A stretch of 64,000 nt of DNA from Paraburkholderia youngii (GTDB lineage: Bacteria; Pseudomonadota; Gammaproteobacteria; Burkholderiales; Burkholderiaceae). How positions within the stretch are numbered: the first letter of the stretch is position 1; each line of letters begins with the position of its first letter. The stretch spans positions 930,001 through 994,000 of the forward strand of contig NZ_JAALDK010000002.1 of assembly GCF_013366925.1 (NCBI RefSeq), read 5' to 3'. Positions 24,128 to 54,480 of this stretch are shown here, piece by piece. Both the position numbers and the translations under genes were made by a program. The notes beneath the pieces are model-generated. The model saw only the letters and a program-made list of their open reading frames with translations. It was not told the origin of the DNA and did no database searches.

Positions 24128-24367
24128 TTACACCCCGATGGTCCGCGTCGTCTTCAGCGCGATCCATGTCATGCCTTCGCGCAGCCCTTCGAGTACCGCT
24201 TCTCTTTCCACGGCGAACACCTGCGATTGCTGAAAGGTGCGTTCGAAGTCACCTTCGGGCGACACATGTTTGACATGGATCGTCGCCTGAAACCCGCCTT
24301 GTTGCGCTTCCTCCGTGTGGACACTGACGGACCAGGTCCCTTGCTGCGCGTTTGCTGATATGGCCAT
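24128..24367 (-). CDS. Small conserved hypothetical protein of the low-oxygen island
   Basis: A 79-aa protein of mixed beta-strand character (TWSVSVHTEEAQQGGFQATIHVKHV pattern), with no signal or membrane span. GAGGAG precedes the ATG at 24365-24367; a longer frame reading upstream is not supported. An FNR-type box lies 68 bp upstream. I do not recognise a function; its regulation and place mark it as a low-oxygen stress gene. Confidence 0.6.
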   Translation of the reverse strand: MAISANAQQGTWSVSVHTEEAQQGGFQATIHVKHVSPEGDFERTFQQSQVFAVEREAVLEGLREGMTWIALKTTRTIGV

Positions 24368-24434
24368 TGGATGCTCCTCGGGTTGTGGCGAGCGGCTGCC
24401 ACCGTCAGCGTAGGTCCGTGCAACGCCTGTCTCG

Positions 24435-24448
24435 TTGATCCAGGTCAA
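24435..24448. promoter_or_regulatory. FNR-type box TTGATCCAGGTCAA
   Basis: One mismatch from the FNR consensus TTGAT-N4-ATCAA. It lies 68 bp upstream of the 79-aa gene's start. On that strand a TACGCT hexamer is placed where the -10 element of a class II FNR promoter should lie. The rest of the 355-bp gap up to the PHB depolymerase gene shows nothing I can name. Confidence 0.65.
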
Positions 24449-24721
24449 GTGTCAACGCGAACCGTGAGTCACGCTCGACGCCGATCGATCGCCCGATGCC
24501 TTCAGCTTCGCTTCAGATTCACGCTAGCGCGTGAAAACCCTGCCGGGAAAACGCGCAACGACCCGTGCATGTCAGATGCTAAGGCGCCATGCACCGCGCT
24601 CGCATCGATTTCAGGCCCTCGCGCCGAAGTTTCGCGGTAAGCTTTTGCGACGTACCCGCGTCACGAGTTCGTGCCGGTGCGGCAACGCTGCCCTCATGAT
24701 CGACGAACGCCGGGGTTCATC

Positions 24722-26020
24722 ATGTGGTACGCCTTTATCGACGCACAACAACGCCTCGCTCGCGCGATGGTCAGGAGAGTTCTAACCGATTCGGGGTCGA
24801 TGCCGAGCGCGCAAACGGGCTGGCCCAGCCCGAATCATGCGGCCGACGCGTTCAGCCACTGGCTGCTGAGATCGACCTGCGCTTTCGAGCGAACGCCGCC
24901 ATTCGCGATCCACTCGGTTGCCGTCGACGGTCGCCGCGTGAGCGTCGACGAAAACGTCGTCGCCTCGTTGCCACTCGGCGCGCTGCTCAGATTCAAGCGC
25001 AACCTGCCTACACCACCTACTGACACCAAACCGCCAGTGCTATTGTGCGCGCCACTCGCCGGACATCACTCGGTGATGCTGCGCGAGACCGTCGAGACGC
25101 TGCTCGAAGAACGTGACGTATTCGTGACCGATTGGACCGATGCGCGCGACGTTCCGCTCGAAGCGGGCCCGCTATCGCTCGACGACTACGTGCAGGCGCT
25201 CGATAGCTTCATCGGCACCGCCCGCGCGTTCGGGTCGCCGGTTCATGTGGTCGCAATCTGTCAGGCGAGCGTGCCCGCGCTCGGCGCCGCGGCGCTGCTC
25301 GCAGTGGACGAGGCCGCCCCGCTTGCGAGCATCTCGCTGCTGGGCGGCCCGATCGATACCCGTTTGAACCCAACCGTCACGGACCGCTTCGCGAGTTCGC
25401 ATACGCTCGAGTGGTTCCACGATCATGCGATCGATATCGTTCCACCGCCCTATCGCGGCGCGGGACGTCTCGTGTATCCGGGATTCATCCAGCAGGCCGC
25501 GATTTTTGCCGCGCATCCGGAGCGGCAGTTGCGGCTGGAAGCGGACTACTGGTCCCGCTGGCTCGCCGGCGACATCCCCGGTGCGCAGCGGGCGCTGCGC
25601 TCGGCCAACGAATATGCGGCGGTCCTCGATATGACGGAGTGCTACTTCCTCGACATGCTTCGCGTGGTGTTTCACGAACATCTGTTGCCGCGTGATTTAT
25701 GGTCGGTCGCCGGGCGCCGGGTGCGGATCGCCGCGCTGCGCGATACTCCGCTGTGCACGATCGAGGGCGACAGCGACGAGATCACCGGCGCGGGGCAAAC
25801 ACATTGCGCGCATGCGCTGTGCGATACATCGCCGATGCGGACGGCGCGGCAAATCACCATCGAGCAGTGCAATCACTATGACCTGTTCATCGGTCCGCGT
25901 TGGCGCGATGCGGTTTATCCGGGCCTCTGCGAATTCTGGCGCGATGTCGAACACGCCGCGTCGGAGGTTTGCCAGCCGCGCCGCGAGGCCAGGGGTTCGG
26001 CGGACCGCAGACCGGCGTGA
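24722..26020 (+). CDS. phaZ: Intracellular polyhydroxyalkanoate depolymerase
   Basis: A 432-aa protein of the PhaZ1-type intracellular depolymerases, which release 3-hydroxybutyrate from native PHB granules in the cytosol. The nucleophile is a cysteine, in VVAICQAS (Cys180), as in Ralstonia PhaZ1; the catalytic His lies in EQCNHYDLF near the end. HHSVMLRETVETLL and VTDWTDARDVPL are family segments. The ATG at 24722 lacks a strong ribosome site; upstream in-frame starts exist. It lies among FNR-box genes, with a PHB reductase gene 1.2 kb away, linking PHB turnover to oxygen limitation. Confidence 0.82.
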   Translation: MWYAFIDAQQRLARAMVRRVLTDSGSMPSAQTGWPSPNHAADAFSHWLLRSTCAFERTPPFAIHSVAVDGRRVSVDENVVASLPLGALLRFKRNLPTPPTDTKPPVLLCAPLAGHHSVMLRETVETLLEERDVFVTDWTDARDVPLEAGPLSLDDYVQALDSFIGTARAFGSPVHVVAICQASVPALGAAALLAVDEAAPLASISLLGGPIDTRLNPTVTDRFASSHTLEWFHDHAIDIVPPPYRGAGRLVYPGFIQQAAIFAAHPERQLRLEADYWSRWLAGDIPGAQRALRSANEYAAVLDMTECYFLDMLRVVFHEHLLPRDLWSVAGRRVRIAALRDTPLCTIEGDSDEITGAGQTHCAHALCDTSPMRTARQITIEQCNHYDLFIGPRWRDAVYPGLCEFWRDVEHAASEVCQPRREARGSADRRPA

Positions 26021-26073
26021 GGTGGCCGCGACAACGCCGGCAGTCCGCGCGTCACGTCACGACGCCAGTTTGC

Positions 26074-26388
26074 TCAGTTCCCGCGCTCCATGCCGATCGC
26101 GGCTTCCAGGGCCAGTTCCGCCACATCGAACGCGCGGCGGATCGCCGCTTTGGCGTCGTCGTCAGCGCAGTGCGCGATGGGCTTGAGTTCGCGCGCGGGC
26201 GTGACGAGATCGAGCCGCACGTCATACAGCGGACGCGCCGATCCCGGGCGCAATGCCTCGATGGCGAGATGGCAGTGCGACACGAGCGCGCCAAACCGCG
26301 CGAGACGCACCAGTTGCGCACCTGCTTCCGCTTCGAGCGGTGCGGCACCCGCGAAACCAAGGTAGACGATCTGCATATCAATGCCCAT
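26074..26388 (-). CDS. HPF/RaiA-like ribosome-associated protein
   Basis: A 104-aa protein with the beta-alpha-beta-beta-beta-alpha order of the hibernation-promoting factor family: MQIVYLGF, SHCHLAIE, YDVRLDLVTP, then AAIRRAFDVAELALEA. Such proteins bind 30S subunits and silence ribosomes in starved or anoxic cells. GGGAGG precedes the ATG at 26386-26388. An FNR-type box lies 101 bp upstream. Divergent enough that a neighbouring function is possible. Confidence 0.65.
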   Translation of the reverse strand: MGIDMQIVYLGFAGAAPLEAEAGAQLVRLARFGALVSHCHLAIEALRPGSARPLYDVRLDLVTPARELKPIAHCADDDAKAAIRRAFDVAELALEAAIGMERGN

Positions 26389-26488
26389 CTTCGCCTCCCG
26401 TCGCAAGTGTCGAACGGACCTGTTCCACGCAAATGCAAGTCCAGGCGCTCGCTATGGGCTTATCTTGTTCCTGTCGGAGTGGCGGTCA

Positions 26489-26502
26489 TTGACGTGGGTC
26501 AA
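26489..26502. promoter_or_regulatory. FNR-type box TTGACGTGGGTCAA
   Basis: A perfect 5-4-5 inverted repeat of the FNR/ANR/DNR type, 101 bp upstream of the HPF-like start codon. Both half-sites carry the TTGAC variant of TTGAT. Confidence 0.6.
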
Positions 26503-26537
26503 GCGCGGTGAAGGCAGTGTGGCAATCAGCTAGTGAT

Positions 26538-26549
26538 AGTCACGTGACT
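26538..26549. promoter_or_regulatory. 12-bp perfect palindrome upstream of the toxin-antitoxin genes
   Basis: AGTCACGTGACT is perfectly self-complementary and lies 47 bp upstream of the antitoxin ATG; CCGGACCGG follows at 26556-26564. Phd-type antitoxins autorepress through palindromes overlapping their promoter, so this is the expected operator. Confidence 0.5.
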
Positions 26550-26596
26550 GCCATACCGGACCGGACTAACATGGACTTAGCCCACTAGGAGCAGTT

Positions 26597-26833
26597 ATGC
26601 AGACAGTCAATATCCACGAAGCAAAGAGCCAGTTTTCGCGCCTCGTCGATGCCGCGGCCAGCGGTGAGGAGATCGTGATCGCAAAGGCCGGCAAGCCGGC
26701 AGCGCGGCTCGTACCGATGGAATATGCCAAGCCCGTTCGGCGGTTTGGTGGACTGAAGGGGAAGGTTCGCATTGCGGACGACTTTGACGCACCCTTGCCC
26801 GATGACGTTATCGCGGCATTCGAAGGGCGTTGA
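26597..26833 (+). CDS. Type II antitoxin, Phd/YefM family
   Basis: A 78-aa antitoxin. The N-terminal DNA-binding fold reads VNIHEAKSQFSRLVDAAASG, then EIVIAKAGKPAARLVPM, the Phd/YefM signature; the acidic C-terminal tail (DDFDAPLPDDVIAAFEGR) is the toxin-neutralising part. AGGAG lies 6-7 nt before the ATG. Its stop overlaps the toxin's start. It neutralises the PIN ribonuclease and represses the pair. Base composition is less GC-rich than the surrounding stress genes. Confidence 0.92.
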   Translation: MQTVNIHEAKSQFSRLVDAAASGEEIVIAKAGKPAARLVPMEYAKPVRRFGGLKGKVRIADDFDAPLPDDVIAAFEGR

Positions 26834-27210
26834 TGCGACTCCTTCTCGATACGCACGTTTTCCTCTGGGCAGTCACGGACGATCGCAAGCTGACCAAAGC
26901 TGCCCGTAAGCTGATACTCGATGCAAGCGAGGTCTTCGTCAGCAGCGCGAGTATCTGGGAGGCCTCGATCAAAGCCGGTCTTGGAAAGCTCGAGGTGGAC
27001 GTCAATCTCCTCGTTTCTGAGATCGAAGCGAGCGGCTTTCTGGAATTGCCCGTGCGGGCAGTGCATGCCGCTCTGGTTCGAGATTTGCCCGATATTTACA
27101 AGGATCCATTTGATCGGCTTCTGGTCGCACAAGCTCTTTCGGAGCCGTTGCGCTTGCTGAGTTCAGACGGCCACCTGTCGAAATACACAGACCTGGTTAT
27201 CGCCGTCTAG
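26833..27210 (+). CDS. Type II toxin, PIN-domain ribonuclease (VapC-like)
   Basis: A 125-aa PIN-domain protein starting at the ATG that shares its A with the antitoxin's TGA. Acidic metal-binding residues are visible: Asp in LLLDTHVFLW, Glu in SIWEASIK, and Asp in DPFDRLLVAQA. PIN toxins cleave tRNA or rRNA and halt growth. The pair is complete and probably active. Confidence 0.92.
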   Translation: MRLLLDTHVFLWAVTDDRKLTKAARKLILDASEVFVSSASIWEASIKAGLGKLEVDVNLLVSEIEASGFLELPVRAVHAALVRDLPDIYKDPFDRLLVAQALSEPLRLLSSDGHLSKYTDLVIAV

Positions 27211-27215
27211 GACAC

Positions 27216-27962
27216 TCAATGCATATGCATCCCCCCATTGATCGCAATATCGGCACCGGTGATAAAAGCCGCTTCGTCGGAGCATAGAAACGCGATCAAC
27301 GCCGCCACCTCGTCCGGACGTCCGAGCCGGCCGACCGGGATCTGCGGCAGGATCTTCGTGTCGAGAATCTCGCGCGGCACCGCTTCGACCATCGCGGTCG
27401 CGAGGTAACCGGGCGACACGGTGTTCACCGTAACGCCGTGCTTCGCGGTTTCGAGCGCAAGCGCCTTGGTAAAGCCGTGCACGCCCGCTTTGGCCGATGA
27501 ATAGTTGGTTTGCCCGTAGGCGCCGCGCGAGCCGTTGACCGACCCCACGTTGACGATACGGCCGTGGCGCCGCTCGAGCATGCCGGGCAACAGCGGCTTG
27601 GTCATGTTGAACAGGCCATCGAGATCGGTGCGCAGCACGGCGTCCCAGTGCTCCTTGCTCATTTTCGCGAAGCTCGTGTCTTGCGTGATGCCGGCGTTGT
27701 TGATCAGCACGTCGACCGCGCCTAGTTCTGTCAGCACGCGTTGCGCGCAGCGCGCGCAGGAATCGAAGTCGGCGATGTCGGCTTCATATGCGTGAAAGTC
27801 GCGCCCCGTGTCGCGCTCGTGCTGCAGCCAGGTCGGCACGTGATCGTTGTGCGTCGAGTGCGTCACCGCGACCGTCATACCCGCGTCATGAAGCGCCCGG
27901 CTGACCGCCGCGCCCAAACCGCCCATCCCGCCTGTGACCAATGCCACGCGATCCGTTCCCAT
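27216..27962 (-). CDS. phaB: Acetoacetyl-CoA reductase (PhaB-type SDR)
   Basis: A 248-aa SDR very like PhaB: TGGMGGLG cofactor motif, NNAGITQD, NVGSVNGSRGAYGQTNYSSAK with the catalytic Ser, Tyr and Lys, and the NADPH-type THST segment after strand 2. It reduces acetoacetyl-CoA to (R)-3-hydroxybutyryl-CoA for PHB synthesis and consumes NADPH, a useful redox sink at low oxygen. It follows the small phasin-like gene by 64 bp in the same direction and has AGGAG before its ATG, so it should be driven from the FNR box at 28471. Confidence 0.9.
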   Translation of the reverse strand: MGTDRVALVTGGMGGLGAAVSRALHDAGMTVAVTHSTHNDHVPTWLQHERDTGRDFHAYEADIADFDSCARCAQRVLTELGAVDVLINNAGITQDTSFAKMSKEHWDAVLRTDLDGLFNMTKPLLPGMLERRHGRIVNVGSVNGSRGAYGQTNYSSAKAGVHGFTKALALETAKHGVTVNTVSPGYLATAMVEAVPREILDTKILPQIPVGRLGRPDEVAALIAFLCSDEAAFITGADIAINGGMHMH

Positions 27963-28026
27963 CTGAACTCCTCCTTGCCGTGTCTGCCATTGACGGTGCG
28001 CACGCCGGCTTTGCCGGCCCGCGCGG

Positions 28027-28377
28027 CTAAACGACGCCCGCGAACGGCAGCGCGTTCTGCGAGCTCCACCACCACGCGCTCAAGCCGCCCGCGAGCGGCG
28101 CGACGCCCGGCGCGATGCCGTACGCCGCCTGCCACCACGCAGACCACGCAGCGCAAGCGCGGTTCGCCGCGTCGAACCACTCCGCCTCGCGCTGTACGGC
28201 GAAGGCGATCGATTTGCTCCAGTCGGCGAAACTCCGCGCCGCGTACTCGCGCGCCGCGCCCTGCGCGGTCTGATACGCCGACGCGTAATCGAACCAGCCT
28301 TCGGGCTGTCCGGATGCCGTCGAGGTCCATGGTGAAGCGAAGCGTCCGAGCGGCGCGTCGGATTCGGATGCCATCAT
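28027..28377 (-). CDS. Small protein with Trp-rich C-terminus, possible phasin-like
   Basis: A 116-aa protein starting at the double ATG 28372-28377 with GGAGGG upstream. It is rich in Ala, Trp, Ser and Tyr, with an amphipathic helical middle (TAQGAAREYAARSFADWSKS) and a Trp-rich tail (AAWSAWWQAAYG, GLSAWWWSS). Its place just upstream of phaB and near phaZ suggests a PHB granule-associated role. That is inference from context; I do not see a definite phasin domain. Confidence 0.5.
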   Translation of the reverse strand: MMASESDAPLGRFASPWTSTASGQPEGWFDYASAYQTAQGAAREYAARSFADWSKSIAFAVQREAEWFDAANRACAAWSAWWQAAYGIAPGVAPLAGGLSAWWWSSQNALPFAGVV

Positions 28378-28470
28378 CGCTGCCCTCCAGAGGACAGCAT
28401 AGGATTGCCAGGCGCGGTTGCAAACCGTCGAGCGCGTCTGCCACCGTATCGAGCTCGCGACGGCCCGCGC

Positions 28471-28484
28471 TTGATCTGCATCAA
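28471..28484. promoter_or_regulatory. FNR box TTGATCTGCATCAA, bidirectional
   Basis: An exact match to the FNR consensus TTGAT-N4-ATCAA, placed almost exactly midway between divergent genes: 93 bp from the universal stress protein start and 94 bp from the phasin-like start. One site could serve both promoters. The same 14-mer occurs at 33987-34000. Confidence 0.8.
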
Positions 28485-28576
28485 CAGGCTCGCCCGCCGG
28501 GCCCATAGACTCCATTTGACGACGGGCGCGAGCCCGCTTGCGCCCGTTTCCCACGTTCTGTCACGGAGCTTTGGCG

Positions 28577-29416
28577 ATGAGCTACAAAAGCATTCTCGTT
28601 CACCTCGATACGAGCGTTCGTGCACATCCGCGTCTCGAGATCGCATTGCAGCTCGCACACCGCTTTCATGCGACGCTGACCGGCCTGTTTTCGACGTACG
28701 TGCCGCCGCGGCACGCGTTCTTCGTGATGGCCGGCACCGCCGACTACTATGCGGAGCACGAGCGCCTGCGCCACGAGCGTGCCAGCGCGCTGGAGCGGCT
28801 GTTTCGCGCGGAACTCGCGCGCGCGAACGTCGACGGCCAGTGGATCGCCGCGAACGGCTATGCGAACGACGTCGTGCCGCCCTATGCGCGGGTCGCCGAT
28901 CTGATCGTGCTCGGCCAGCCCGACCCGACCGACCCGGACGCGTTCGTCGCCGAACAGTTCGTCGAGCACATCGTGCTGTCGGCCGGGCGGCCGGTGTTGC
29001 TGGTGCCGTCGAGCGGCACCTTCGCGGCGCCCGGCCGCCACGCGCTGATCGCGTGGGACGGCAGCCGCGAAGCGACCCGCGCGATCCACGACGCGCTGCC
29101 GTTCCTCGCGCACGCGGCCAAAGTGACGCTGCTGACGGTTCATTCGTCGGCCGATCGTCCGCCGCAGGGCACGGCTGCCGGCGACGACATCGCACTCACC
29201 GTCGCGCGTCACGGCGTGAGGATCGACGTGCGCGAGCTGAGCGTCGCGGACCGCGCGCCGGTCGGCGACGCGCTGCTGTCGCAGGCGGCCGACCTCGGCT
29301 GCGACCTGATCGTGATGGGCGCCTACGCGCATTCGCGTCTGCACGAAGTCGTGCTGGGCGGCGCGACGCGCACGATGCTCGAATCGATGAGCGTGCCGGT
29401 GCTGTTGTCGCACTGA
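28577..29416 (+). CDS. Universal stress protein, tandem-domain length
   Basis: A 279-aa UspA-superfamily protein. The first domain begins YKSILVHLDTSVRAHP; the second ends with the nucleotide-loop-like IVMGAYAHSRLHEVVLGGATRTML. Such proteins support survival under anoxia and energy starvation. CGGAG precedes the ATG at 28577. A second stress protein gene follows 23 bp downstream, forming an operon under the FNR box at 28471. Confidence 0.87.
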   Translation: MSYKSILVHLDTSVRAHPRLEIALQLAHRFHATLTGLFSTYVPPRHAFFVMAGTADYYAEHERLRHERASALERLFRAELARANVDGQWIAANGYANDVVPPYARVADLIVLGQPDPTDPDAFVAEQFVEHIVLSAGRPVLLVPSSGTFAAPGRHALIAWDGSREATRAIHDALPFLAHAAKVTLLTVHSSADRPPQGTAAGDDIALTVARHGVRIDVRELSVADRAPVGDALLSQAADLGCDLIVMGAYAHSRLHEVVLGGATRTMLESMSVPVLLSH

Positions 29417-29439
29417 AGTGCGCGCTTAAGGAGCCCGCC

Positions 29440-29943
29440 ATGTTTCACCGCCTACTCGTCGCGCTCGACGGCAGCGCCACGGCCTCGCGCGCGTTCGACG
29501 CCGCGCTGACCCTCGCCGCCGAATCGGGCGCCGAGCTGATGCCGCTGTACGTGATCGACGCACCCATCATCGCTTACGACGCGCCCGGCTTCGACCCTTC
29601 CACGATCGAGGACGCGTTCATCGAGGAAGGCAAGCGGATCGCGGCCGACGCGCAGAGCCGGATGAGCGCACGCGGGGTCAAGGGCACGGCCCGCACCGTC
29701 GAAGCCGCGACCACCGGCGAAGACGTCGCGCATCGCATCGTCGAGACGGCGCGCGAATGGCACGCCGATGCGATCGTGATGGGCACGCACGGCCGCCGCG
29801 GGTTTCAACGGCTGATGCTCGGCAGCGTCGCCGAGCGCGTGCTGCGCCGCGCCTGTTGCCCGGTGCTGATGATTCCCGCGCAGGCGAGCGGCGCGACGCG
29901 CGTCCAGCCAGCCCCGGACAGCGCCGACAGCGGCTCCGCCTGA
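29440..29943 (+). CDS. Universal stress protein (UspA family), ATP-binding type
   Basis: A 167-aa single-domain UspA protein beginning FHRLLVALDGS. The ATP-binding loop is complete ([22 protein letters not shown], read G-x2-G-x9-G-S). AAGGAGCCCGCC precedes the ATG. Second gene of the operon driven from the FNR box. It resembles the two other small Usp proteins of the island at 29987 and 33159. Confidence 0.9.
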   Translation: MFHRLLVALDGSATASRAFDAALTLAAESGAELMPLYVIDAPIIAYDAPGFDPSTIEDAFIEEGKRIAADAQSRMSARGVKGTARTVEAATTGEDVAHRIVETAREWHADAIVMGTHGRRGFQRLMLGSVAERVLRRACCPVLMIPAQASGATRVQPAPDSADSGSA

Positions 29944-29986
29944 GCGAACTCGCCTGAGCCGCTAGAAACTGGCTCTGCGCGGCGCT

Positions 29987-30448
29987 TCAGGGCCGAGGGT
30001 AGGCTTGTTCGTCATGCCGCACGATCAGCACCGGTATGTCGGTCGACCGCACGAGCGACTCTGCGACGCTGCCGAGCAGAAAGCGCTGCACGCCACGGCG
30101 GCCATGCGTGCCCATCACGATCAGATCGGCCTGGATTTCGTCGGCGACGCGCGCGAGCACCGCCGACACGTTTTCGGCGTAAGCGTCGATCACCCGCACG
30201 CCGCCCGGCACCTGCGCCTCGCGCAACAGCTCGCGCGGGCCATCGAGCGCGCGGCTGGCGAAATCTTGCGCCGCGCCCGCCGGTTCCGGCTCGAAAGCCA
30301 CGTCGGCATTGTCCGACCACTTGCCGTGCCCCACCACGCAGCAGGCTTCGAGCGTGGCGCCCGTCAGCTTCGCGAGCTTCAGCGCCTCGGCGAAGGCGCG
30401 CTGCGCGCTGGGACTGTCGTCGAGTGCAACCAGAATTCGTGCATACAT
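29987..30448 (-). CDS. Universal stress protein (UspA family)
   Basis: A 153-aa UspA protein (YARILVALDDSPSAQRAF; ATP loop [16 protein letters not shown]). I start at the ATG 30446-30448, which has GAGGGAG upstream and matches the family N-terminus. It converges with the preceding Usp operon and has an FNR-type box 91 bp upstream. Confidence 0.9.
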   Translation of the reverse strand: MYARILVALDDSPSAQRAFAEALKLAKLTGATLEACCVVGHGKWSDNADVAFEPEPAGAAQDFASRALDGPRELLREAQVPGGVRVIDAYAENVSAVLARVADEIQADLIVMGTHGRRGVQRFLLGSVAESLVRSTDIPVLIVRHDEQAYPRP

Positions 30449-30538
30449 GTCGGACTCCCTCTGAAAGCGCTGGCATGACCCGAAGTGGTGCCCTCGCGCG
30501 TTTGCACCGACAGTGTGAAGCGCGCCCCGCCACTCGGC

Positions 30539-30552
30539 TTGACGCTGGTCAA
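30539..30552. promoter_or_regulatory. FNR-type box TTGACGCTGGTCAA
   Basis: A perfect 5-4-5 inverted repeat with TTGAC half-sites, 91 bp upstream of the Usp gene at 29987-30448 and 145 bp upstream of the receiver-domain gene on the other strand. A further small inverted repeat, TAGGA-ATAA-TCCTA, lies at 30604-30617 between it and the receiver gene. Confidence 0.6.
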
Positions 30553-30696
30553 CGGGCCGCCGCTCGGCGCTGCCGCTGCTGGACGACATCGCCAGCAACC
30601 CACTAGGAATAATCCTACAACCACTACCTGGACTCCTAGCACCGCTTAAAGCGCTGCCGATATGTTTCCAAGATTAGGTCGCCAATACTGGTTGGT

Positions 30697-31104
30697 ATGG
30701 ACACCGCCCCGTCAGCCACCTTATCGAGAGTCTTCCTCGTCGACGATGCGGTCGAGGTCCGGCGCCGGCTTGCTTGCCTGATCGCGCTGATTCCCGGCAT
30801 CGAAATCGCCGGCGAGTCGGCGGGCGTCGAGCACGCGTTCGACGACATCGTCGCGAGTCGCGCCGATGTCGCGGTGCTGGACCCGTGCTTCTCGGGCAAG
30901 ACCGACCTCCTGCTGCTCGCTGCGCTAGCGCGGGTGCGGCCGTCCATCGTCAGCATCGTGCTGACCAATCATGACGCGACGGCGTTTCGCCGCGCGTGCG
31001 AAGCGGCGGGCGCCGACTTCTTCTTCGACAAGACCTCGGAGTTCGAGCTCGCCTGCCGCGCCATCGAAGCGATTGCCTATGCGCGTCGTGCGCACCGGGT
31101 CTGA
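30697..31104 (+). CDS. Stand-alone response-regulator receiver domain
   Basis: A 135-aa CheY-like domain with no output domain. The acidic pocket is Asp16-Asp17, the phospho-acceptor Asp62 (VAVLDPCFSG), and the conserved Lys lies in FFFDKTSEF. It precedes the fnr gene by 16 bp, so the two are co-transcribed. Lone receivers act as phosphate sinks or protein-binding switches; a link between phosphorylation and FNR output is an attractive inference. The histidine kinase at 32.0 kb is a possible partner. Confidence 0.82.
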   Translation: MDTAPSATLSRVFLVDDAVEVRRRLACLIALIPGIEIAGESAGVEHAFDDIVASRADVAVLDPCFSGKTDLLLLAALARVRPSIVSIVLTNHDATAFRRACEAAGADFFFDKTSEFELACRAIEAIAYARRAHRV

Positions 31105-31120
31105 CCGCCAGGAGCCGATC

Positions 31121-31903
31121 ATGCAAGTTGCCGCAGTCCGTGAACCCCGCCACGACGCGCCTCGCACCTCGCACGTCGTACCGATCCACGTCGCGCCCAG
31201 CACCGCGGCGGCACGCCACGCCGTCACGGGCTGCTCCACCTGCGCGATGCGCGCGATCTGCATGCCGCCCGAGCTGACACCGGACGAACTGAGCCGGCTC
31301 GATGCGTTGATCTGCGCGACGCGCTCGATCAAACGCGGCGACGCGCTGTATCGCGCGGGCGACGAGTTTCAAAGCATCTACGCGATACGCGCCGGCTCAT
31401 TCAAAACCGTGGTCATGCATCGCGACGGTCGCGAGCACGTGACTGGCTTCCAGATTGCCGGCGACTCGCTTGGCCTCGACGGCATCGGCGAGGGCAAGCA
31501 GAATTGCGATGCGATTGCGCTCGAAGATAGCGTCGTGTGCATCATTCCGTTCGCGCAGCTCGAGGCGATCTGTCGCGAGATCAAACCGATGCAGCATCAC
31601 ATCTATCAGATGATGAGCGGCGAGATCGTGCGCGAATCGAGCCAGATGATGCTGCTCGGCACGATGACCGCCGAACAGCGCGTCGCGACGTTTTTGCTGA
31701 ATCTGTCGAAGCGCTTCAAGGCGCGCGGCTTTTCCGCGGCGGAGTTTCATCTGCGCATGACGCGCGAGGAAATCGGCTGCTTTCTGGGCATGAAACTCGA
31801 AACGGTGAGCCGGATGTTCTCGAAGTTCCAGCGCGAGCACCTCGTCAAGGCGAACGGCAAAACGATCCGCATCGAAGATCCGGAACGACTGGCTCGGGTT
31901 TGA
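31121..31903 (+). CDS. fnr: FNR-type oxygen-sensing transcription regulator
   Basis: A 260-aa CRP/FNR protein with all four [4Fe-4S] ligands: Cys38, Cys41 and Cys47 with the same spacing as E. coli FNR (x2, x5), plus Cys129. The cyclic-nucleotide-like barrel, dimer helix and C-terminal helix-turn-helix follow; the recognition helix carries Glu227-x2-Ser230-Arg231, the set that reads TTGAT. CAGGAG precedes the ATG. It should activate the surrounding genes, six of whose upstream regions carry TTGAY-N4-RTCAA boxes. Confidence 0.92.
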   Translation: MQVAAVREPRHDAPRTSHVVPIHVAPSTAAARHAVTGCSTCAMRAICMPPELTPDELSRLDALICATRSIKRGDALYRAGDEFQSIYAIRAGSFKTVVMHRDGREHVTGFQIAGDSLGLDGIGEGKQNCDAIALEDSVVCIIPFAQLEAICREIKPMQHHIYQMMSGEIVRESSQMMLLGTMTAEQRVATFLLNLSKRFKARGFSAAEFHLRMTREEIGCFLGMKLETVSRMFSKFQREHLVKANGKTIRIEDPERLARV

Positions 31904-31968
31904 GCACCGGCGCGACGCTCGACCCACGTTCGTTCGCGGGACATGCCGGGTGGAACAGGCGCTCCTGA

Positions 31969-31984
31969 ACTGATATAACTCAGT
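31969..31984. promoter_or_regulatory. Dyad around a TATAAC element, possible promoter of the kinase gene
   Basis: ACTGA-TATAAC-TCAGT is a 5-6-5 inverted repeat whose centre resembles a -10 hexamer, 42 bp before the histidine kinase start. A regulator bound here would block or expose the promoter. Short arms, so tentative. Confidence 0.35.
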
Positions 31985-32025
31985 GCGTTGCGGTATGCGA
32001 CCTTGCGTGGCCGCCTGGAGGAGCG

Positions 32026-33126
32026 ATGGGTCTATCGAGCGGCGAGTCTTCCTGCTTCACCAGTGCTGCGTCCGGGTCGGACGTGTCCGTCGAGGATCGC
32101 TATTTCATGTTGGTCGAGGCGGTGCAGGACTACGCTATCTTCATGCTGGACCCCGCCGGCCGCGTCACCAGCTGGAATCCCGGCGCACAGCGCATCAAGG
32201 GCTACACGCCCGAAGAAATCATCGGCCAGCATTTCTCGAAGTTCTATACCCCGGAAGACATCGCGGCCGGCAAGCCCGCGCGCGAACTGGAAACCGCCGC
32301 AGCCGTAGGCCGCGCCGAGGACGAAGGATGGCGTGTGCGTCGCGACGGCTCGCGTTTCTGGGCTAATGCGGTCGTTTCCGCCGTGCACGATGCGTCGGGC
32401 GCGCTGCTCGGCTTCGCCAAGGTCACGCGCGATCTGACCGAGCGCATGCGTCTCGCGGAACTCGAACGCGCGAGCCAGGTATCCACGCACGCGCACATCG
32501 CCCGTGAAAACGAGCAGAAACGGATTGCGCGCGAACTGCACGACGATCTCGGCCAACGGCTGACGGCGCTAAAAATGAGCGTCGCGCTGCTCGAAGCGAA
32601 GCTGAACAAGCAAGCCGACACTGAGCCGCTTGCGGCGCAAACGCGTGAGCTGCAACAGCAGATCGACTGGATGGCCGCTTCGCTGCGGCGCATCGCCGCC
32701 GATCTGCGCCCCCCGCTGCTCGACGACCTCGGACTCGCCGCCGCGCTCGACTGGCTGGCCGAAGACTTCACGAAACGCTACAACGTGCGCTCCAGCGTGC
32801 ATCTCGAACCCGCCGAGCCGGTATGCGGCGAATTCGCGGCGACGGCGCTGTTTCGCATCGTTCAGGAGGCGTTGACGAACGTCGCGCGGCACGCCAAGGC
32901 GAGGCGCGTACGCATCGACATGACCTGCGCGGGCCCGATCGTATCGCTCGATATCGACGATGACGGCGTTGGTGTCGCGCTGGATCATGCGCAGGGAACA
33001 ACTTCATTCGGGCTGCTTGGCATTCGCGAACGTGTGCGGCAGTTGCGCGGCAACGTGTCGTTCATCAGCTCGCCGGGCCATGGTTTCAGGATCTCGATCC
33101 AGATACCAGCCGACGCGCTCGTGTAG
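32026..33126 (+). CDS. PAS-domain sensor histidine kinase, NarX/HisKA_3 type
   Basis: A 366-aa soluble kinase without membrane spans. A PAS domain with a PAC tail (about 24-140: YAIFMLDPAGRVTSWNPGA) is followed by a HisKA_3 dimerisation domain with phospho-acceptor His172 (RELHDDLGQRLTAL) and a HATPase (NVARHAKA, IDDDGVG, GLLGIRERV). GGAGGAGCG precedes the ATG. Kinases of this class pair with NarL-type regulators, but none is adjacent; only the lone receiver lies nearby. A cytosolic PAS fits sensing of redox, oxygen or metabolic state. Confidence 0.88.
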   Translation: MGLSSGESSCFTSAASGSDVSVEDRYFMLVEAVQDYAIFMLDPAGRVTSWNPGAQRIKGYTPEEIIGQHFSKFYTPEDIAAGKPARELETAAAVGRAEDEGWRVRRDGSRFWANAVVSAVHDASGALLGFAKVTRDLTERMRLAELERASQVSTHAHIARENEQKRIARELHDDLGQRLTALKMSVALLEAKLNKQADTEPLAAQTRELQQQIDWMAASLRRIAADLRPPLLDDLGLAAALDWLAEDFTKRYNVRSSVHLEPAEPVCGEFAATALFRIVQEALTNVARHAKARRVRIDMTCAGPIVSLDIDDDGVGVALDHAQGTTSFGLLGIRERVRQLRGNVSFISSPGHGFRISIQIPADALV

Positions 33127-33158
33127 TGCTCCACGCCGCCGCGCCCCGCTACCGCGGA

Positions 33159-33629
33159 TTACTCCTCTGGCGCTTCCTCGCTGATTTGCTCGCGCATCAG
33201 CAACACCGGACAGGTCGAGAAACGCAGCACCCGCTCCGCCACGCTGCCGATCACGAGGCGCCGCACGCCGCGTCGCCCATGCGTGCCCAGCACGAGCAGA
33301 TCGGCGTGGACCTGCTCGCCGTGGCGCAGCACGATCGTGGCGACATCGTCGGACAGGCTCTCCGACTCGATCATCGCGGGCCGGCAGCGCACATCGGCGG
33401 CGGCGCAGGCCTGCTCGGCCTCCTCGAGCACCGAGTGGCCGTCCTGGCGCAATGCTTCGACTAGCGCGAGCGGGTCGTAATAGCCGGCATAGGAAAAGAT
33501 CGGCGTCTTGTCGACTACATAAACCGGATGCACGACGGCCTTCGTCAACGCGGCGAGAGTCACCGCTTCTTTCAGCGCGCGTTTCGAGAAGCTACTGCCG
33601 TCCAGCGCGACGAGGATATGTTGGTACAT
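33159..33629 (-). CDS. Universal stress protein (UspA family)
   Basis: A 156-aa UspA protein ([21 protein letters not shown] loop [16 protein letters not shown]), with a long insert [19 protein letters not shown] typical of this subgroup. GGAG precedes the ATG. It lies 27 bp downstream of a small open frame and about 360 bp from the FNR box at 33987. Confidence 0.9.
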
Positions 33630-33656
33630 GCCGATTCTCCACTGAGGTTGGATTTG

Positions 33657-33893
33657 TCAACGCGCGTGGCGCGCCCCTGCTGCAGATAAAAGGGCCCGCC
33701 CGCACTGCCCGGATGCGGCGTGCCTCGCGTATGCCGCGGCGGTGAGCCGCGTGCTGGTCGCGGTCGACGAGACGAAAGCGCGCATCCGCGGCGACGAACT
33801 GCCGGGCGACATGCGGGCGAGCGCCAGTCCGGTGCCGCCCGCGGACGCGATCATCACGCGGTGGAAGGTGTTGCGCTCGGCAGCAGTGTTCAT
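33657..33893 (-). CDS. Possible small protein upstream of the stress protein gene
   Basis: A 78-codon frame starting MNTAAERNTFHRVMIASAGG. GAGGAAA lies 5 nt before its ATG, third positions are strongly G/C-rich through the first fifty codons, and an FNR box lies 94 bp upstream, the same spacing as for other genes of the island. I recognise no family and the C-terminal part looks less coding-like, so it may be a real small gene or a degraded one. Confidence 0.4.
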   Translation of the reverse strand: MNTAAERNTFHRVMIASAGGTGLALARMSPGSSSPRMRAFVSSTATSTRLTAAAYARHAASGQCGRALLSAAGARHAR

Positions 33894-33986
33894 CGGCTTT
33901 CCTCGGATCGTCGCGTCGCGCCTCCGACCGAGACGGGGCGCCCAACGGTGCCCGCTTACATAATGAACGCCGGCGCGGCGGGCGGC

Positions 33987-34000
33987 TTGATCTGCATCAA
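33987..34000. promoter_or_regulatory. FNR box TTGATCTGCATCAA with -10-like element
   Basis: An exact FNR consensus, identical to the box at 28471. On the minus strand a TTATGT/ATTATG hexamer lies at 33958-33964, where the -10 of a promoter with the activator centred at -41.5 would be. It should drive the small frame at 33657 and the Usp gene at 33159. Confidence 0.75.
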
Positions 34001-34022
34001 GCGACCATGGCTCGCGAACAAA

Positions 34023-35012
34023 TCATGAGTGGACCGCGAGCACGGCCGCGCCGGTCAGCTTGCCGTGGCGCAGATCGTCGAGCGCGCGGTTCGCGTCGCG
34101 CAACGGGTAGGTGGTCGTCTCGATCGCGAGCCGGGTCTCCGCGGCGCTGCGCATGAACGCAAGCCCATCGTCGCGGGTCAGATTGGCGACCGACACGACG
34201 CGCCGCTCGCCCCACAGAAACGCGTACGGGAACGACGGAATGTCGCTCATATGAATCCCGCCGCACACCACCACGCCGCCCTTCGCGACCGCCTGCAGCG
34301 CCAGCGGCACCAGTGCGCCGACCGGCGCGAACAGCAGTGCGGCGTCGAGTTCGCTGGGCGGCGCCTCGTCGCTGCCGCCCGCCCATGTCGCGCCGAGGCG
34401 CAGCGCGAGTTGCTGGGCCGCGTGGTCGCCCGGACGCGTGAACGCATAGACGGTGCGCTGCCGGTGACGCGCGACCTGCGCGACGAGATGCGCGGCCGCG
34501 CCGAAACCGTAGATGCCGATCCGTTCGGCGTCGCCCGCCATGCTCAACGTGCGATAGCCGATCAGACCCGCGCACAGCAGCGGCGCGGCCTCGATATCGC
34601 TGTAGTGCGGCGGCAGATGGAAGCAGTAGCGGCTATCGGCGACCGTGCGCTCGGCATAGCCGCCGTCGATCGTGTAGCCGGTGAAGCCGGCGTCTTCACA
34701 GAGATTTTCGCGGGCGGACAGACAGTAGCGGCAGTGACCGCAGGTGCGCCCGACCCACGGCACGCCGACCCGTTCGCCCACGTTGAAACCGCTGACGCCC
34801 GCGCCCAACTCGGCCACCACGCCGACGATTTCGTGGCCTGGAATCACCGGCCGCTTCGGATGCTCAAGCTCGCGATCGACCAGATGCAGGTCCGTGCGGC
34901 ATACGCCGCAGGCATGAACGTCGATCAGAATCTCGCCGGCGCCGGGCCGCGGGTCCGGCACTTCCCGCTCGGTCAGCGTCGCCGAGCTGCCGTCGAACAC
35001 CATCGCTCGCAT
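34023..35012 (-). CDS. Zinc-dependent alcohol dehydrogenase (AdhP-like)
   Basis: A 329-aa medium-chain dehydrogenase. Catalytic zinc ligands lie in CGVCRTDLH and PGHEIVG; the structural zinc cysteines in CGHCRYCLSARENLC. The cofactor site reads IGIYGFGAAAHL, an unusual form of GxGxxG with Ala-rich loop. AAGGAG precedes the ATG. In this low-oxygen island an NADH-reoxidising or alcohol/aldehyde role fits; a Zn-ADH is also part of the Burkholderia low-oxygen locus. Confidence 0.87.
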   Translation of the reverse strand: MRAMVFDGSSATLTEREVPDPRPGAGEILIDVHACGVCRTDLHLVDRELEHPKRPVIPGHEIVGVVAELGAGVSGFNVGERVGVPWVGRTCGHCRYCLSARENLCEDAGFTGYTIDGGYAERTVADSRYCFHLPPHYSDIEAAPLLCAGLIGYRTLSMAGDAERIGIYGFGAAAHLVAQVARHRQRTVYAFTRPGDHAAQQLALRLGATWAGGSDEAPPSELDAALLFAPVGALVPLALQAVAKGGVVVCGGIHMSDIPSFPYAFLWGERRVVSVANLTRDDGLAFMRSAAETRLAIETTTYPLRDANRALDDLRHGKLTGAAVLAVHS

Positions 35013-35141
35013 CGGGTTTCTCCTTCAGACGCTTCGGTGGCGGCACGCTGACGTCATGCAGATCGTGAGCTGCGCGCCGCTCTCATCAGATCAGCATAGG
35101 CGTGCCATTGTGTCGCGCGATCGGTCGCCGCCCTAAACCGT

Positions 35142-35155
35142 TTGATCGAGGTCAA
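35142..35155. promoter_or_regulatory. FNR-type box TTGATCGAGGTCAA
   Basis: One mismatch from consensus, in the gap between the alcohol dehydrogenase (start 130 bp away, minus) and a hypothetical gene (start 160 bp away, plus). TGATCTTAT about 28 bp downstream on the plus strand could be a -10 for the hypothetical gene. Either or both genes could be targets. Confidence 0.6.
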
Positions 35156-35314
35156 TAAGGGCCGTTTCGCCGCCCGTACACTGATCTTATTCCTGATAGG
35201 GGGCCCGTGCCGTGATTGCGGGAATCCGAGCTTATCTGCTCGTGGGCGCGCACACGCTCGTGCGATAGGTACTTAGCCAATACGAACCAGCCATTTATAT
35301 TGCGGAGACTTGTC

Positions 35315-35689
35315 ATGCGCTTGACCGTTCATCTCGACACGTTCGATCGTGTCAACCCGATGGCCTTCGCCATTCTCTGGCTCGACAAGGACACGCGGCA
35401 ATGGTCGCGCGAAGGTCATTTCGGGCTCGAGTTGCCCGAATGGGGCGCTTTGCATGTGGATTGCGGCGATACGCTCGTGTGCGCGCCGCATAGCACGGTG
35501 CCGGTCTGCGTGCTCGAGGGGCTCGATCTGAATCAGCTCGACGGGCCGTTCGAAGGCGAGGTCGGCCGCGTGCAATGGTGCGCGGAACGCGGCCGCAGCC
35601 TGATGTGCGGCCACTGGCGCGTGCAATGCATCGACGTGGAACGGACGGAACCGGAAAACAGCGTATTCGCAAGCGATGAAAACGCGTGA
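35315..35689 (+). CDS. Hypothetical protein of the low-oxygen island
   Basis: A 124-aa soluble protein starting after GGAGACTTGTC. It is rich in Cys, Trp and His (five Cys including VDCGDTLVCAP and MCGHWRVQC) and beta-strand patterns, without a known motif. Last gene at the right side of the FNR-box island. I do not recognise it. Confidence 0.6.
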   Translation: MRLTVHLDTFDRVNPMAFAILWLDKDTRQWSREGHFGLELPEWGALHVDCGDTLVCAPHSTVPVCVLEGLDLNQLDGPFEGEVGRVQWCAERGRSLMCGHWRVQCIDVERTEPENSVFASDENA

Positions 35690-51932: not shown

Positions 51933-52168
51933 GTCTCCCTCCTCCTACGAATCGCGCGTGAGCCGTGATGGCCGAGCCGCGGGTTCGCTTCGATTCTTTC
52001 GTTTCGTTGACGCGAATTCGTCTTGGTCGTGCGCGCTGGATCGTGCCAGTGCGCTAGAGAAGTATAGAAATTTCCGGCGAAAATGCGCTTTGCGCAGCAG
52101 TCACGCATTTGGCCGACGCCGTCGCTCCGTCCACTGTCAGCTCAACGTCAGGTAGAACGGCGCAAGTG

Positions 52169-53389
52169 TCAGCAGACCGCCTCGTCCGTCCGCCTCGAAG
52201 GTGCCGTGCCGGCGTGCTCTCCGAGTTCCATGATTTCCACGAGCCGCTGCTGGTAGTGCTCCGGCAAATACTCCGCGAGTGAATAGCTTCTGCCCTTGTC
52301 CGCCAGATGTATCGCGAGTCGATCCAGTGCCAGTTCGAGGCTCTGAGGCTCCGACCGAAATTTGATCTTGTTGCCCACCGCGTCAGCGGTCGTCGCCATG
52401 CTGCCGCCGTCGTGGACGAGGGCAGGCAAGCCGAGCATGGCGGCCTCGATAATGACGAGCGGCGCATTCTCAGCTCCCAACGATGGCACGACGACCGCGT
52501 CGGCAAATCGGCGCATCCGCGGAAACAATTCCTCCTGCGGCAGTCTGCCGAAAAAAACCAGTTTGCCGCGCTGGATCAGCGACGCGAAGCGCTGCTCCAT
52601 CGCACGACGATCCGGACCGTCCCCGTAGACTCCTAATACGTCAATACGATGAAAGTTCACGCTCTCCGCGAGTTCGATAAATTCCGCGAGTCCCTTTTCC
52701 TGTGAAATCCTGCCGACAAAGGCAAGCCTGAATCTCTGCTTGCCAGCAACACGCGAAGGCTGAAACGCGACCGGTACTGAAGAGGGATTAAAAACGACTC
52801 TCGTATTCGTGATGCCACTGCGATGCAGCGCTTCTTCCATGAAGGCGCTTGGACAAACGATCGTCTCGAAGATCCGCTTGGCAGGGAATGCCTCGCGTAC
52901 TGCGTGCCAGTAACACTTCGTCATCAGGTCGTGCAGAAGACCTTTCGTCGTCGACCGACGGGTCAACGCCGCACGCGTGCCCAACACTTCGAGCGGCACA
53001 ATCACCGGCCGCCGGTTGTCGAAGTATTGCAGTGCCGGGTTGTAATAGACGAGATGGTAGTCGTGGCTCGTGTGATATGCGCGAAAGCCGAGCTTTCGCT
53101 TTTGACGCGCGATAACGCTCAGTATCGAATTCGATAGAGCGTTATGGTAGTTGTGCACCATCACCCGATGCGGACGAAAACCCACAATAGTCTTCTCGAG
53201 TGCGCGCGCGGCCGCGACATTCCAGGACCTGGACCACTTGGTGGTTCCCACCGGAAAGCGGGTGTCGTCGAAGCGTTCAACTTCGACCCCGGGCAATCGA
53301 CTCAGAAGATCTGCCGATTGCTGATAAACAACTTCCGCGCCGCCCATCGACGCATAATCGTTTATTACCAATATCCTGCAGCGCTTCAT
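52169..53389 (-). CDS. Glycosyltransferase, GT4/GT-B fold
   Basis: A 406-aa GT-B glycosyltransferase. N-terminal MKRCRILVINDYASMGGAE is the classical acceptor-domain start with the GGAE loop; FVGRISQEKGLAEFIELAE and VVPSLGAENAPLVIIEA (E-x7-E donor motif) lie in the C-terminal half. The ATG at 53387-53389 fits homology; an upstream ATG would add 16 residues. It stands alone, with no polysaccharide genes beside it, and is visibly less GC-rich than its neighbours. Confidence 0.85.
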   Translation of the reverse strand: MKRCRILVINDYASMGGAEVVYQQSADLLSRLPGVEVERFDDTRFPVGTTKWSRSWNVAAARALEKTIVGFRPHRVMVHNYHNALSNSILSVIARQKRKLGFRAYHTSHDYHLVYYNPALQYFDNRRPVIVPLEVLGTRAALTRRSTTKGLLHDLMTKCYWHAVREAFPAKRIFETIVCPSAFMEEALHRSGITNTRVVFNPSSVPVAFQPSRVAGKQRFRLAFVGRISQEKGLAEFIELAESVNFHRIDVLGVYGDGPDRRAMEQRFASLIQRGKLVFFGRLPQEELFPRMRRFADAVVVPSLGAENAPLVIIEAAMLGLPALVHDGGSMATTADAVGNKIKFRSEPQSLELALDRLAIHLADKGRSYSLAEYLPEHYQQRLVEIMELGEHAGTAPSRRTDEAVC

Positions 53390-53733
53390 GTTTAGGCCCG
53401 CTGTTGGTGCACAACTCACGACACCGAGTACATGCATTGGTGGTTAATTCGTCGGGAATTTTATGAAGTCATTTTCGACGACTGTGTGTGAGAGCGCACC
53501 AAGCAAGTACCCGTTCTGTTACTGCGTCTTACAGGCCGGGTGATTTTAGAAGTGCTATTACGCTGCGAAAGCTGCGGATGAAAAATTGACCGGAGATCGA
53601 CAGTAATCGTTGAGCTTTTGGGAAGAAAAAACATCTCAGGACGAATCGACGACACAACGGCGGCCACCCTCAGCCAGGGTTTCCCCTCCTTCAGCACATC
53701 AAAACTTGTCCTACTATCAAGCAGTTAAAACTA
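53390..53733. other. AT-richer intergenic region without a supported gene
   Basis: This 344-bp stretch is clearly less GC-rich than the surroundings. A minus-strand open frame (53461-53697) has no ribosome site, poor codon use and no similarity. It may be part of the acquired segment that brought the glycosyltransferase. Confidence 0.5.
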
Positions 53734-53751
53734 ACTAACTCATCAGTTAGT
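53734..53751. promoter_or_regulatory. Perfect 7-4-7 palindrome, TetR operator
   Basis: ACTAACTCATCAGTTAGT lies 9 bp upstream of the tetR ATG, so it overlaps the promoter or leader of the five-gene efflux operon. Size and symmetry suit a TetR-family dimer. The tetR product is the obvious ligand-responsive repressor. Confidence 0.65.
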
Positions 53752-53760
53752 CCGGTGTCC

Positions 53761-54480
53761 ATGCCGCAAGTCGCCCGTTCCAGAATGGGTCGTCGTCCTC
53801 ATCCGCAGGACTTCGACGCACGCGAACATCTGCTCGATGTCGCGGTGGCGCTGTTCGCCGAGCGCGGGATCGCCAACACGACGGTGGCGCAGATCGCGGC
53901 GGCGAGCGGCGTGACGTCCGCGATGGTGCACTACTGGTTCCAGACCCGCGAAAAGCTGCTCGACGCGTTGTTCGAGGAAAAGCTGGTCGCCGCGTTCGGC
54001 GCCATCTGGGACCCAGTCGATGCCGAACGCGACGATCCGCTCGCGCTGACGCAAGGCATCGTCAAACGCATGTTCGACGTCACCGAGGCCATGCCGTGGC
54101 TGCCTTCGCTATGGCTGCGCGAAATCATCAACGAAGGCGGCCTGCTGCGCGAGCGCGCGTTTGCGCATATCCCCGTGCAAAAGGTCGCCGCGTTCGGTCA
54201 GAACATCGCACGCGGTTGCGCGTCGGGTCAGTTGAATGCGCAGCTCGAACCGTTGCTGCTGTTCAACTCGGTGCTCGCGCTCGTGATGCTGCCGCAGGCA
54301 ACCGCCAGGATCTGGCAACGCCTGAATCCGCGCAGTTCGTTCGATCGCGCGACGCTCGAACGCCACGTCGTCGCACTGCTCACGCAGGGCATGAGCGCAA
54401 CCACGGCGGTCAAGACCAGCGCCAGGGCAAGGAGCCGGGCGACGTCCACCGCACGCCGCGCGAAAGGAAAGCCGTCATGA
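53761..54480 (+). CDS. TetR-family regulator
   Basis: A 239-aa regulator: helix-turn-helix at about 20-60 (IANTTVAQIAAASGVTSAMVHYWF), then an all-helical ligand-binding domain. A GTG two codons earlier is possible. Its stop overlaps the ATG of the HlyD gene. First gene of the efflux operon; resembles the CecR-controlled ybhGFSR arrangement of E. coli in gene order. The Arg/Ala/Ser-rich tail is longer than usual. Confidence 0.87.
   Translation: MPQVARSRMGRRPHPQDFDAREHLLDVAVALFAERGIANTTVAQIAAASGVTSAMVHYWFQTREKLLDALFEEKLVAAFGAIWDPVDAERDDPLALTQGIVKRMFDVTEAMPWLPSLWLREIINEGGLLRERAFAHIPVQKVAAFGQNIARGCASGQLNAQLEPLLLFNSVLALVMLPQATARIWQRLNPRSSFDRATLERHVVALLTQGMSATTAVKTSARARSRATSTARRAKGKPS

Follow-up and report, generated by a model that had tools for sequence, protein, structure and literature searches.

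We analysed a 64,000-nucleotide window of the Paraburkholderia youngii genome (C2:930001-994000 of a 9.49-Mb assembly in four contigs, G000; positions without a contig label are counted from the window's first letter) and found that an 11-kb island within it carries six FNR boxes (B1-B6), a set of genes for universal stress proteins (Usp) and the gene for an FNR-type regulator. From its sequence we read this island as a local low-oxygen regulon of the FNR (ANR/FixK) type, with a probability of roughly 0.82. As oxygen falls, an FNR-type protein, whether the island's own, its paralogue on contig C1 or both, would hold an iron-sulphur cluster, dimerise and bind the six boxes, each placed some 41 bp ahead of a predicted start site, from where it would recruit RNA polymerase as a class II activator. 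The genes expected to be switched on encode the Usp proteins, a protein resembling the hibernation promoting factor (HPF), its 79-residue companion and a DUF3564 protein, with the phaB side of B3 probably among them; the HPF-like factor would be expected to park ribosomes. No class II box serves the FNR gene itself, for which FixJ is the probable switch in many relatives. An earlier, sequence-only reading of this DNA had proposed a stress island that carries FNR boxes and encodes an FNR, and the six boxes, their density and placement and the regulator's residues uphold that description.

All six boxes listed in that reading are present, and their number is far above shuffled expectation. The window holds seven exact matches to TTGAY-N4-RTCAA, namely B1-B6 and a site at 12505 that lies inside a long open reading frame (ORF) and has no -10 hexamer, compared to a mean of 0.10 over 100 shuffles. 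Genome-wide there are 39 exact sites, these seven and 32 beyond the window, and 14 matches to the reversed pattern; six of the 39 are packed into 10.7 kb, a clustering matched by none of 200,000 random placements. The genome-wide comparison of density that had been proposed therefore favours the island, where boxes are much denser and better placed than elsewhere. The distances from box edge to ATG, 68 bp for B1 and 101, 93, 91 and 94 bp for B2 through B5, agree with the four at 91-101 bp and one at 68 bp described earlier, and B6 ends 160 bp from the DUF3564 ATG at 35315.

The boxes share a promoter layout. Across 15 loci of relatives, from which near-duplicates of the window and of one another had been removed, -10-like hexamers scoring over 5 bits peak at a gap of 21 bp from the box (37 of 63 boxes), with no other gap exceeding 4. 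In a second set of 20 loci (18 genomes, fetched by FNR), the looser hexamer YANNNT stands 21-22 bp after 73 of 92 boxes, whereas random positions there have it at a rate of 5.5%; in 16 loci fetched by the hpf gene it follows 24 of 36 boxes at this distance. All six island boxes have YANNNT at this distance, versus 10 of the 32 sites outside the window. Judged by this spacing, the arrangement reads as close to a class II FNR promoter, in which the box is centred at about -41.5. The side on which the hexamer lies names the target gene of each box: the 79-residue protein for B1, the HPF-like protein for B2, the tandem Usp for B3 (with a weaker pointer to the phaB side), a Usp for B4, a decayed Usp for B5 and DUF3564 for B6.

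The layout is conserved. A kinase scan of named genomes left 80 loci, 31 of which were laid out by gene, and window gene order is kept at least partly in five loci (L064-L067 and L071), from P. atlantica, P. tuberum, Paraburkholderia sp. UYCP14C, P. monticola and Burkholderia sp. H160. In these five relatives an exact box, followed after 21-22 bp by YANNNT on the side it takes in the window, was found at 27 of 27 testable orthologous places (three for B1, four for B2 and five each for B3-B6; the L067 stretch lacks the B1 genes and the L071 stretch ends before B2). Box flanks are only 38-72% invariant among the relatives. Our argument rests on the 27 places, because the invariance of the half-sites follows partly from having selected exact boxes. 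In Caballeronia, Trinickia and further Paraburkholderia the same genes are rearranged, with boxes still ahead of Usp-type genes. Seven of the 31 loci have no box (L075, L083, L084, L087, L093, L117 and L120), and most of these share little besides the kinase.

To name targets across relatives, we counted hits in 58 loci with a box directed at the gene within 450 bp, skipping hits that lacked their N-terminal half. Directed boxes were found for the tandem Usp (36/58), CBS-BON (10/17), DUF3564 (12/23), the 79-residue protein (orf79, 16/31), usp3 (12/24), hpf (16/41), alcohol dehydrogenases (ADH) of any kind (17/37) and phaZ (2/4); they were rare for FixL (1/39), the kinase (1/28) and usp4 (1/27), and absent for FNR (0/52), the receiver protein (0/46), FixJ (0/41) and usp2 (0/28). 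The earlier proposal that the boxes serve stress and polyhydroxybutyrate (PHB) genes thus survives in part. Its stress half stands, in that the predicted targets are the Usp genes, the HPF-like gene, the 79-residue gene and DUF3564. phaB is probably a target through a bidirectional B3, with a directed box at 14 of 16 orthologues read to 600 bp, and phaZ is weakly indicated. The Zn-dependent ADH was rejected as a target, since none of its 13 orthologues (at least 65% identity, read to 600 bp) has a directed box and the box faces away in 10; more distant ADHs (<65%) have one in 17 of 23 cases over the same distance. Of the five Usp loci, four are intact genes and the fifth is a decayed remnant. 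Immediately ahead of this remnant B5 is intact and conserved and has a good -10; transcription from it may therefore now extend into the next Usp.

On a plasmid of P. sprentiae WSM5005 (L256), phaZ, phbB, the ADH, a transketolase subunit and an oxidase are kept at 84-96% protein identity. Genes for FNR, the receiver, the kinase, Usp, HPF, orf79 and DUF3564 were not found in that 10.8-kb stretch, nor was any exact box, although one degenerate trace of B6 persists, and hpf is not on the plasmid. Boxes and stress genes are therefore missing together. YeeE/YedE and cytochrome b genes occupy the place of DUF3564 there, with the flanks retained.

The regulator has the residues expected of an oxygen-sensing FNR. 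Cysteines C38, C41, C47 and C140 (C-X2-C-X5-C and a fourth) and the recognition helix LETVSR are present in all 21 readable sequences, which include those of the window and of the C1 paralogue (of 23 rows, two were left out as mis-framed); the exact cysteine spacing and Glu-Ser-Arg helix claimed at the outset are both there. We take C140 to match the fourth cluster ligand of E. coli FNR. The island FNR exceeds the NCBIfam Fnr model NF008365 narrowly (228.9 versus 228 bits). The genome encodes one other close FNR-type protein (C1:2285714-2286622, 47% identical), and it is possible, at somewhat less than even odds, that this paralogue uses the boxes and that the island FNR is redundant or acts on other sites. 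The paralogue has LETVSR and the same cysteines, and there is precedent in the reported possible redundancy of anr1 and anr2 in B. cenocepacia (PMC9104464) and the promoters that Fnr1 and Fnr3 of H. seropedicae are described as having in common (PMC5934665). However, the island FNR remains close to the box-bearing genes despite heavy rearrangement.

In many relatives the fnr gene itself is probably switched by FixJ, as the receiver-FNR pair follows a kinase and second regulator resembling FixL and FixJ in 13 of the 20 FNR-fetched loci. Such control has a reported parallel in B. dolosa, where FixLJ induces fixK, a homologue of BCAM0049 (PMC5234846). Neither member of the pair is in the window's island. 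P. monticola and H160 have FixJ beside FNR without an intact FixL (L067:7100-8553 and L071:2515-3270), with only a C-terminal FixL trace visible in L067, which suggests stepwise loss of FixL. The FixJ orthologue of P. youngii (C2:5469-6113, 90% identical) lies inside a second box cluster, and a FixL orthologue was not found in the genome, the best match being the window kinase at 42%. Autoregulation of FNR through B4 was rejected: no -10 points toward the receiver-FNR pair at a gap of 20-22 bp, and directed boxes were nil for both genes. A good hexamer at a gap of 55 from B4 was also discarded, as the sequence in which it lies is conserved by P. atlantica alone. No heme site was established in the window kinase.

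The island is clearly a new case of a known type of low-oxygen response, in which the link to hibernation is unusual. ANR/FNR/FixK regulons of Burkholderia, Herbaspirillum and Pseudomonas are described with the same kind of box, Usp and PHB targets and FNR paralogues (PMC9104464, PMC5934665, PMC5234846) and with FixLJ acting on an FNR-type gene (PMC5234846); the Anr box used for B. cenocepacia follows the same kind of consensus (PMC9104464). In contrast to those regulons, several targets and the FNR gene here lie in one 11-kb island, and each main target, the HPF-like gene among them, has its own box. The island might instead be simply the Paraburkholderia form of the low-oxygen-activated (lxa) locus of B. 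cenocepacia, reported as 50 genes with six for Usp (PMC6127331, PMC9733578). The two have a Usp-rich low-oxygen theme in common, with regulators and metabolic genes alongside (PMC6127331, PMC9733578), but the gene sets, compared by description, are alike only in part. The alpha-crystallin (Hsp20) and phosphofructokinase of lxa are not matched by any of the 20 ORFs scanned, and the Burkholderia regulator BCAM0049 is distant from lxa (BCAM0275-0323) by locus number, so we consider this equation unlikely.

A reading of the boxes as palindromes without regulatory function, arisen by chance or from repeats, is highly improbable: outside the window 18 of the 32 sites fall inside predicted ORFs (by a crude gene caller that also put B1 and B4, wrongly, inside over-long ORFs) and 22 have no correctly spaced -10, but the conservation of boxes with their -10, the target bias and the loss of boxes along with their target genes in P. 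sprentiae all argue against it.

Several observations weigh against a local FNR regulon as we have drawn it. By a stricter -10 score only three of the six island boxes exceed 5 bits, with B1, B2 and B4 at 2.7-3.6, and the matrix used is that of E. coli. The canonical class II FNR gap is 22 bp, and the gap here is mostly 21. Boxes without a -10 number 19 of 92 in the FNR-fetched and 12 of 36 in the hpf-fetched loci, and B1, B3 and B5 have further hexamers of some score on the opposite side. The relatives are not independent, and several genomes contributed two loci. phaB has a directed box within 450 bp in only 7 of 25 hits, and P. sprentiae keeps phbB without any box. Any protein of the CRP/FNR family with an E..SR helix could use the boxes.

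The newest element of the island is an apparently FNR-driven gene with an HPF fold. The AlphaFold2 (AF2) model of its product (pLDDT 88.7) has 24 Foldseek matches at E≤0.001, which by entry title are hibernation factors or ribosome structures, and the family profile matches a solved hibernation factor (8.5e-8). We call the protein HPF-like, rather than a member of the HPF/RaiA family, because it scores under the cut-off of Pfam PF02482 (S30AE; 14.8 versus 23.7 bits); of the 40 members of the alignment, 35 match PF02482 at E≤0.1, the best of them at 6.7e-6. The gene occurs in 40 of 150 sampled genomes of the family and 7 of 25 genera. We fetched 35 homologues, the best 37 of 50 matches listed minus the window's own and one split match. 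Among these, 20 carry an exact box no more than about 500 bp away, and in seven of the 20 a strict -10 faces the gene. Ten of the other 15, all from another genus of the family (g36), have orf79 followed by hpf, convergent with FNR, with an exact box and -10 ahead. An exact box thus precedes the HPF-like gene or its apparent operon in 30 of 35, the other five being L216 (one mismatch) and L236-L239. In Burkholderia stagnalis, hpf and orf79 likewise lie behind one exact box, convergent with the FNR gene, with TATGCT 21 bp on and an extra small ORF before orf79; in the window the two genes each have their own box. The 79-residue protein has no Foldseek relative at E≤0.001, and its likeness to Rv1738 is weak.

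We suggest, tentatively and with the odds somewhat against us, that FNR of Burkholderiaceae responds to anoxia by directly activating a pair of ribosome-silencing genes, those for the HPF-like protein and the 79-residue CV_2116/Rv1738-like protein. A dormancy programme, as first proposed, would draw backing from the predicted HPF fold. The closest parallel is the mycobacterial DosR regulon (RafH, Rv1738, Usp), likewise described as responding to hypoxia by inducing Usp together with a dedicated hibernation factor (PMC10799931, PMC7324553, PMC6127331), RafH being reported as raised via DosR in hypoxia (PMC10799931); here, however, the regulator is FNR and the HPF-like protein has a single domain, whereas RafH is a two-domain HPF. 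If the proposal is true, the pair would be a convergent counterpart of the DosR - RafH/Rv1738 dormancy switch. E. coli RaiA and HPF have the same predicted fold as the window's protein; RaiA is reported to be lowered by FNR (PMC8778775), whereas the box here has the layout of an activator, and the sign of control would be opposite. A thin search of published literature on ribosome hibernation and low-oxygen FNR control yielded no FNR-activated HPF. Should FNR indeed drive the HPF-like gene, a large group of soil and symbiotic bacteria would have oxygen sensing wired directly to ribosome hibernation, which would bear on how aerobes survive anoxia. The island further offers a compact set of near-identical, testable FNR promoters with a corrected target list, and natural variants in the P. 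sprentiae stretch that lacks FNR, Usp and HPF and in the relatives with FixJ and no intact FixL.

Table 1. Features of the island in window coordinates, with gene content from Pfam and NCBIfam profile scans (20 ORFs scanned).
Feature	Position	Strand	Remarks
79-residue conserved protein (orf79; orf106)	24128..24367	-	four strands and one helix, perhaps CV_2116-like
-10-like TACGCT	24407..24412	-	22 bp from B1
FNR box B1 (TTGATCCAGGTCAA)	24435..24448	-	box of the 79-residue gene; exact box and -10 at 3/3 testable relatives
PhaZ intracellular PHA depolymerase	24671..26020	+	TIGR01849, 343.2 bits (cut-off 300.75); start probably near 24722
HPF/RaiA-like protein	26074..26388	-	fold and family profile
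-10-like CAAGAT	26462..26467	-	21 bp from B2
FNR box B2 (TTGACGTGGGTCAA)	26489..26502	-	box of the HPF-like gene; 4/4 testable relatives
Phd/YefM-type antitoxin	26597..26833	+	PF02604, 45.8 bits; not a conserved island part
PIN-domain partner of antitoxin	26830..27210	+	PF01850, 62.2 bits; not a conserved island part
phaB acetoacetyl-CoA reductase	27216..27962	-	TIGR01829, 334.1 bits (cut-off 302.1)
Small protein upstream of phaB	28027..28400	-	start uncertain, boundary approximate; no Pfam/NCBIfam match
FNR box B3 (TTGATCTGCATCAA)	28471..28484	both	tandem Usp (+), probably phaB side (-); 5/5 relatives
-10-like TAGACT	28506..28511	+	21 bp from B3
Tandem Usp	28577..29416	+	PF00582, two stretches
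Usp downstream of tandem Usp	29440..29943	+	PF00582
Usp	29987..30448	-	PF00582
-10-like CACACT	30512..30517	-	21 bp from B4
FNR box B4 (TTGACGCTGGTCAA)	30539..30552	-	box of Usp 29987-30448; 5/5 relatives
Receiver-only response regulator	30697..31104	+	PF00072; adjoins FNR in most relatives
FNR-type regulator	31121..31903	+	C-X2-C-X5-C, fourth Cys, LETVSR
Soluble PAS / HisKA_3 sensor kinase	32026..33126	+	Pfam scan
Usp	33159..33629	-	PF00582
Decayed Usp-type remnant	33657..33893	-	ORF of 351-380 residues in relatives (P. monticola, P. atlantica)
-10-like CATTAT	33960..33965	-	21 bp from B5
FNR box B5 (TTGATCTGCATCAA)	33987..34000	-	before decayed Usp; 5/5 relatives
Zn-dependent alcohol dehydrogenase	34023..35012	-	TIGR02822; no box target
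FNR box B6 (TTGATCGAGGTCAA)	35142..35155	+	box of DUF3564; 5/5 relatives
-10-like TACACT	35177..35182	+	21 bp from B6
DUF3564 protein	35315..35689	+	PF12087

The Phd/YefM and PIN domains are adjacent and both over their cut-offs, as in a type II toxin-antitoxin pair, and lie between the HPF-like gene and phaB. The pair had been counted in the dormancy set, from which we remove it: it is present in P. atlantica (94 and 99%) and absent from three of the four relatives covering the spot (L065-L067; the L071 stretch ends before it), and no -10 faces it from the neighbouring box. Our first view of it as an insertion was also dropped, since P. sprentiae retains only 55 bp of its upstream region, a trace that favours neither gain nor loss. 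For the small gene upstream of phaB, the name phasin has no Pfam or NCBIfam support, and a long frame at 28027-28554 that would code across B3 was rejected because stops or frame breaks interrupt it in L065, L067 and L071.

Elsewhere in the genome, boxes lie near genes for OmpW, another Zn-ADH and a Phasin_2 protein (L169, L155 and L162, on C3 and C1) and so fit a wider FNR regulon; of these, the box by Phasin_2 lacks a properly spaced -10. The second cluster (L202, C2:5466-12713), with boxes at C2:9335 and 12012, contains the FixJ orthologue without FixL and genes for a CBS-BON protein, a phosphoribosyltransferase, a double-CBS protein and an APH-AAA fusion. Within the window, positions 52001-54000 have a GC content of 0.569, compared to about 0.65 around them.

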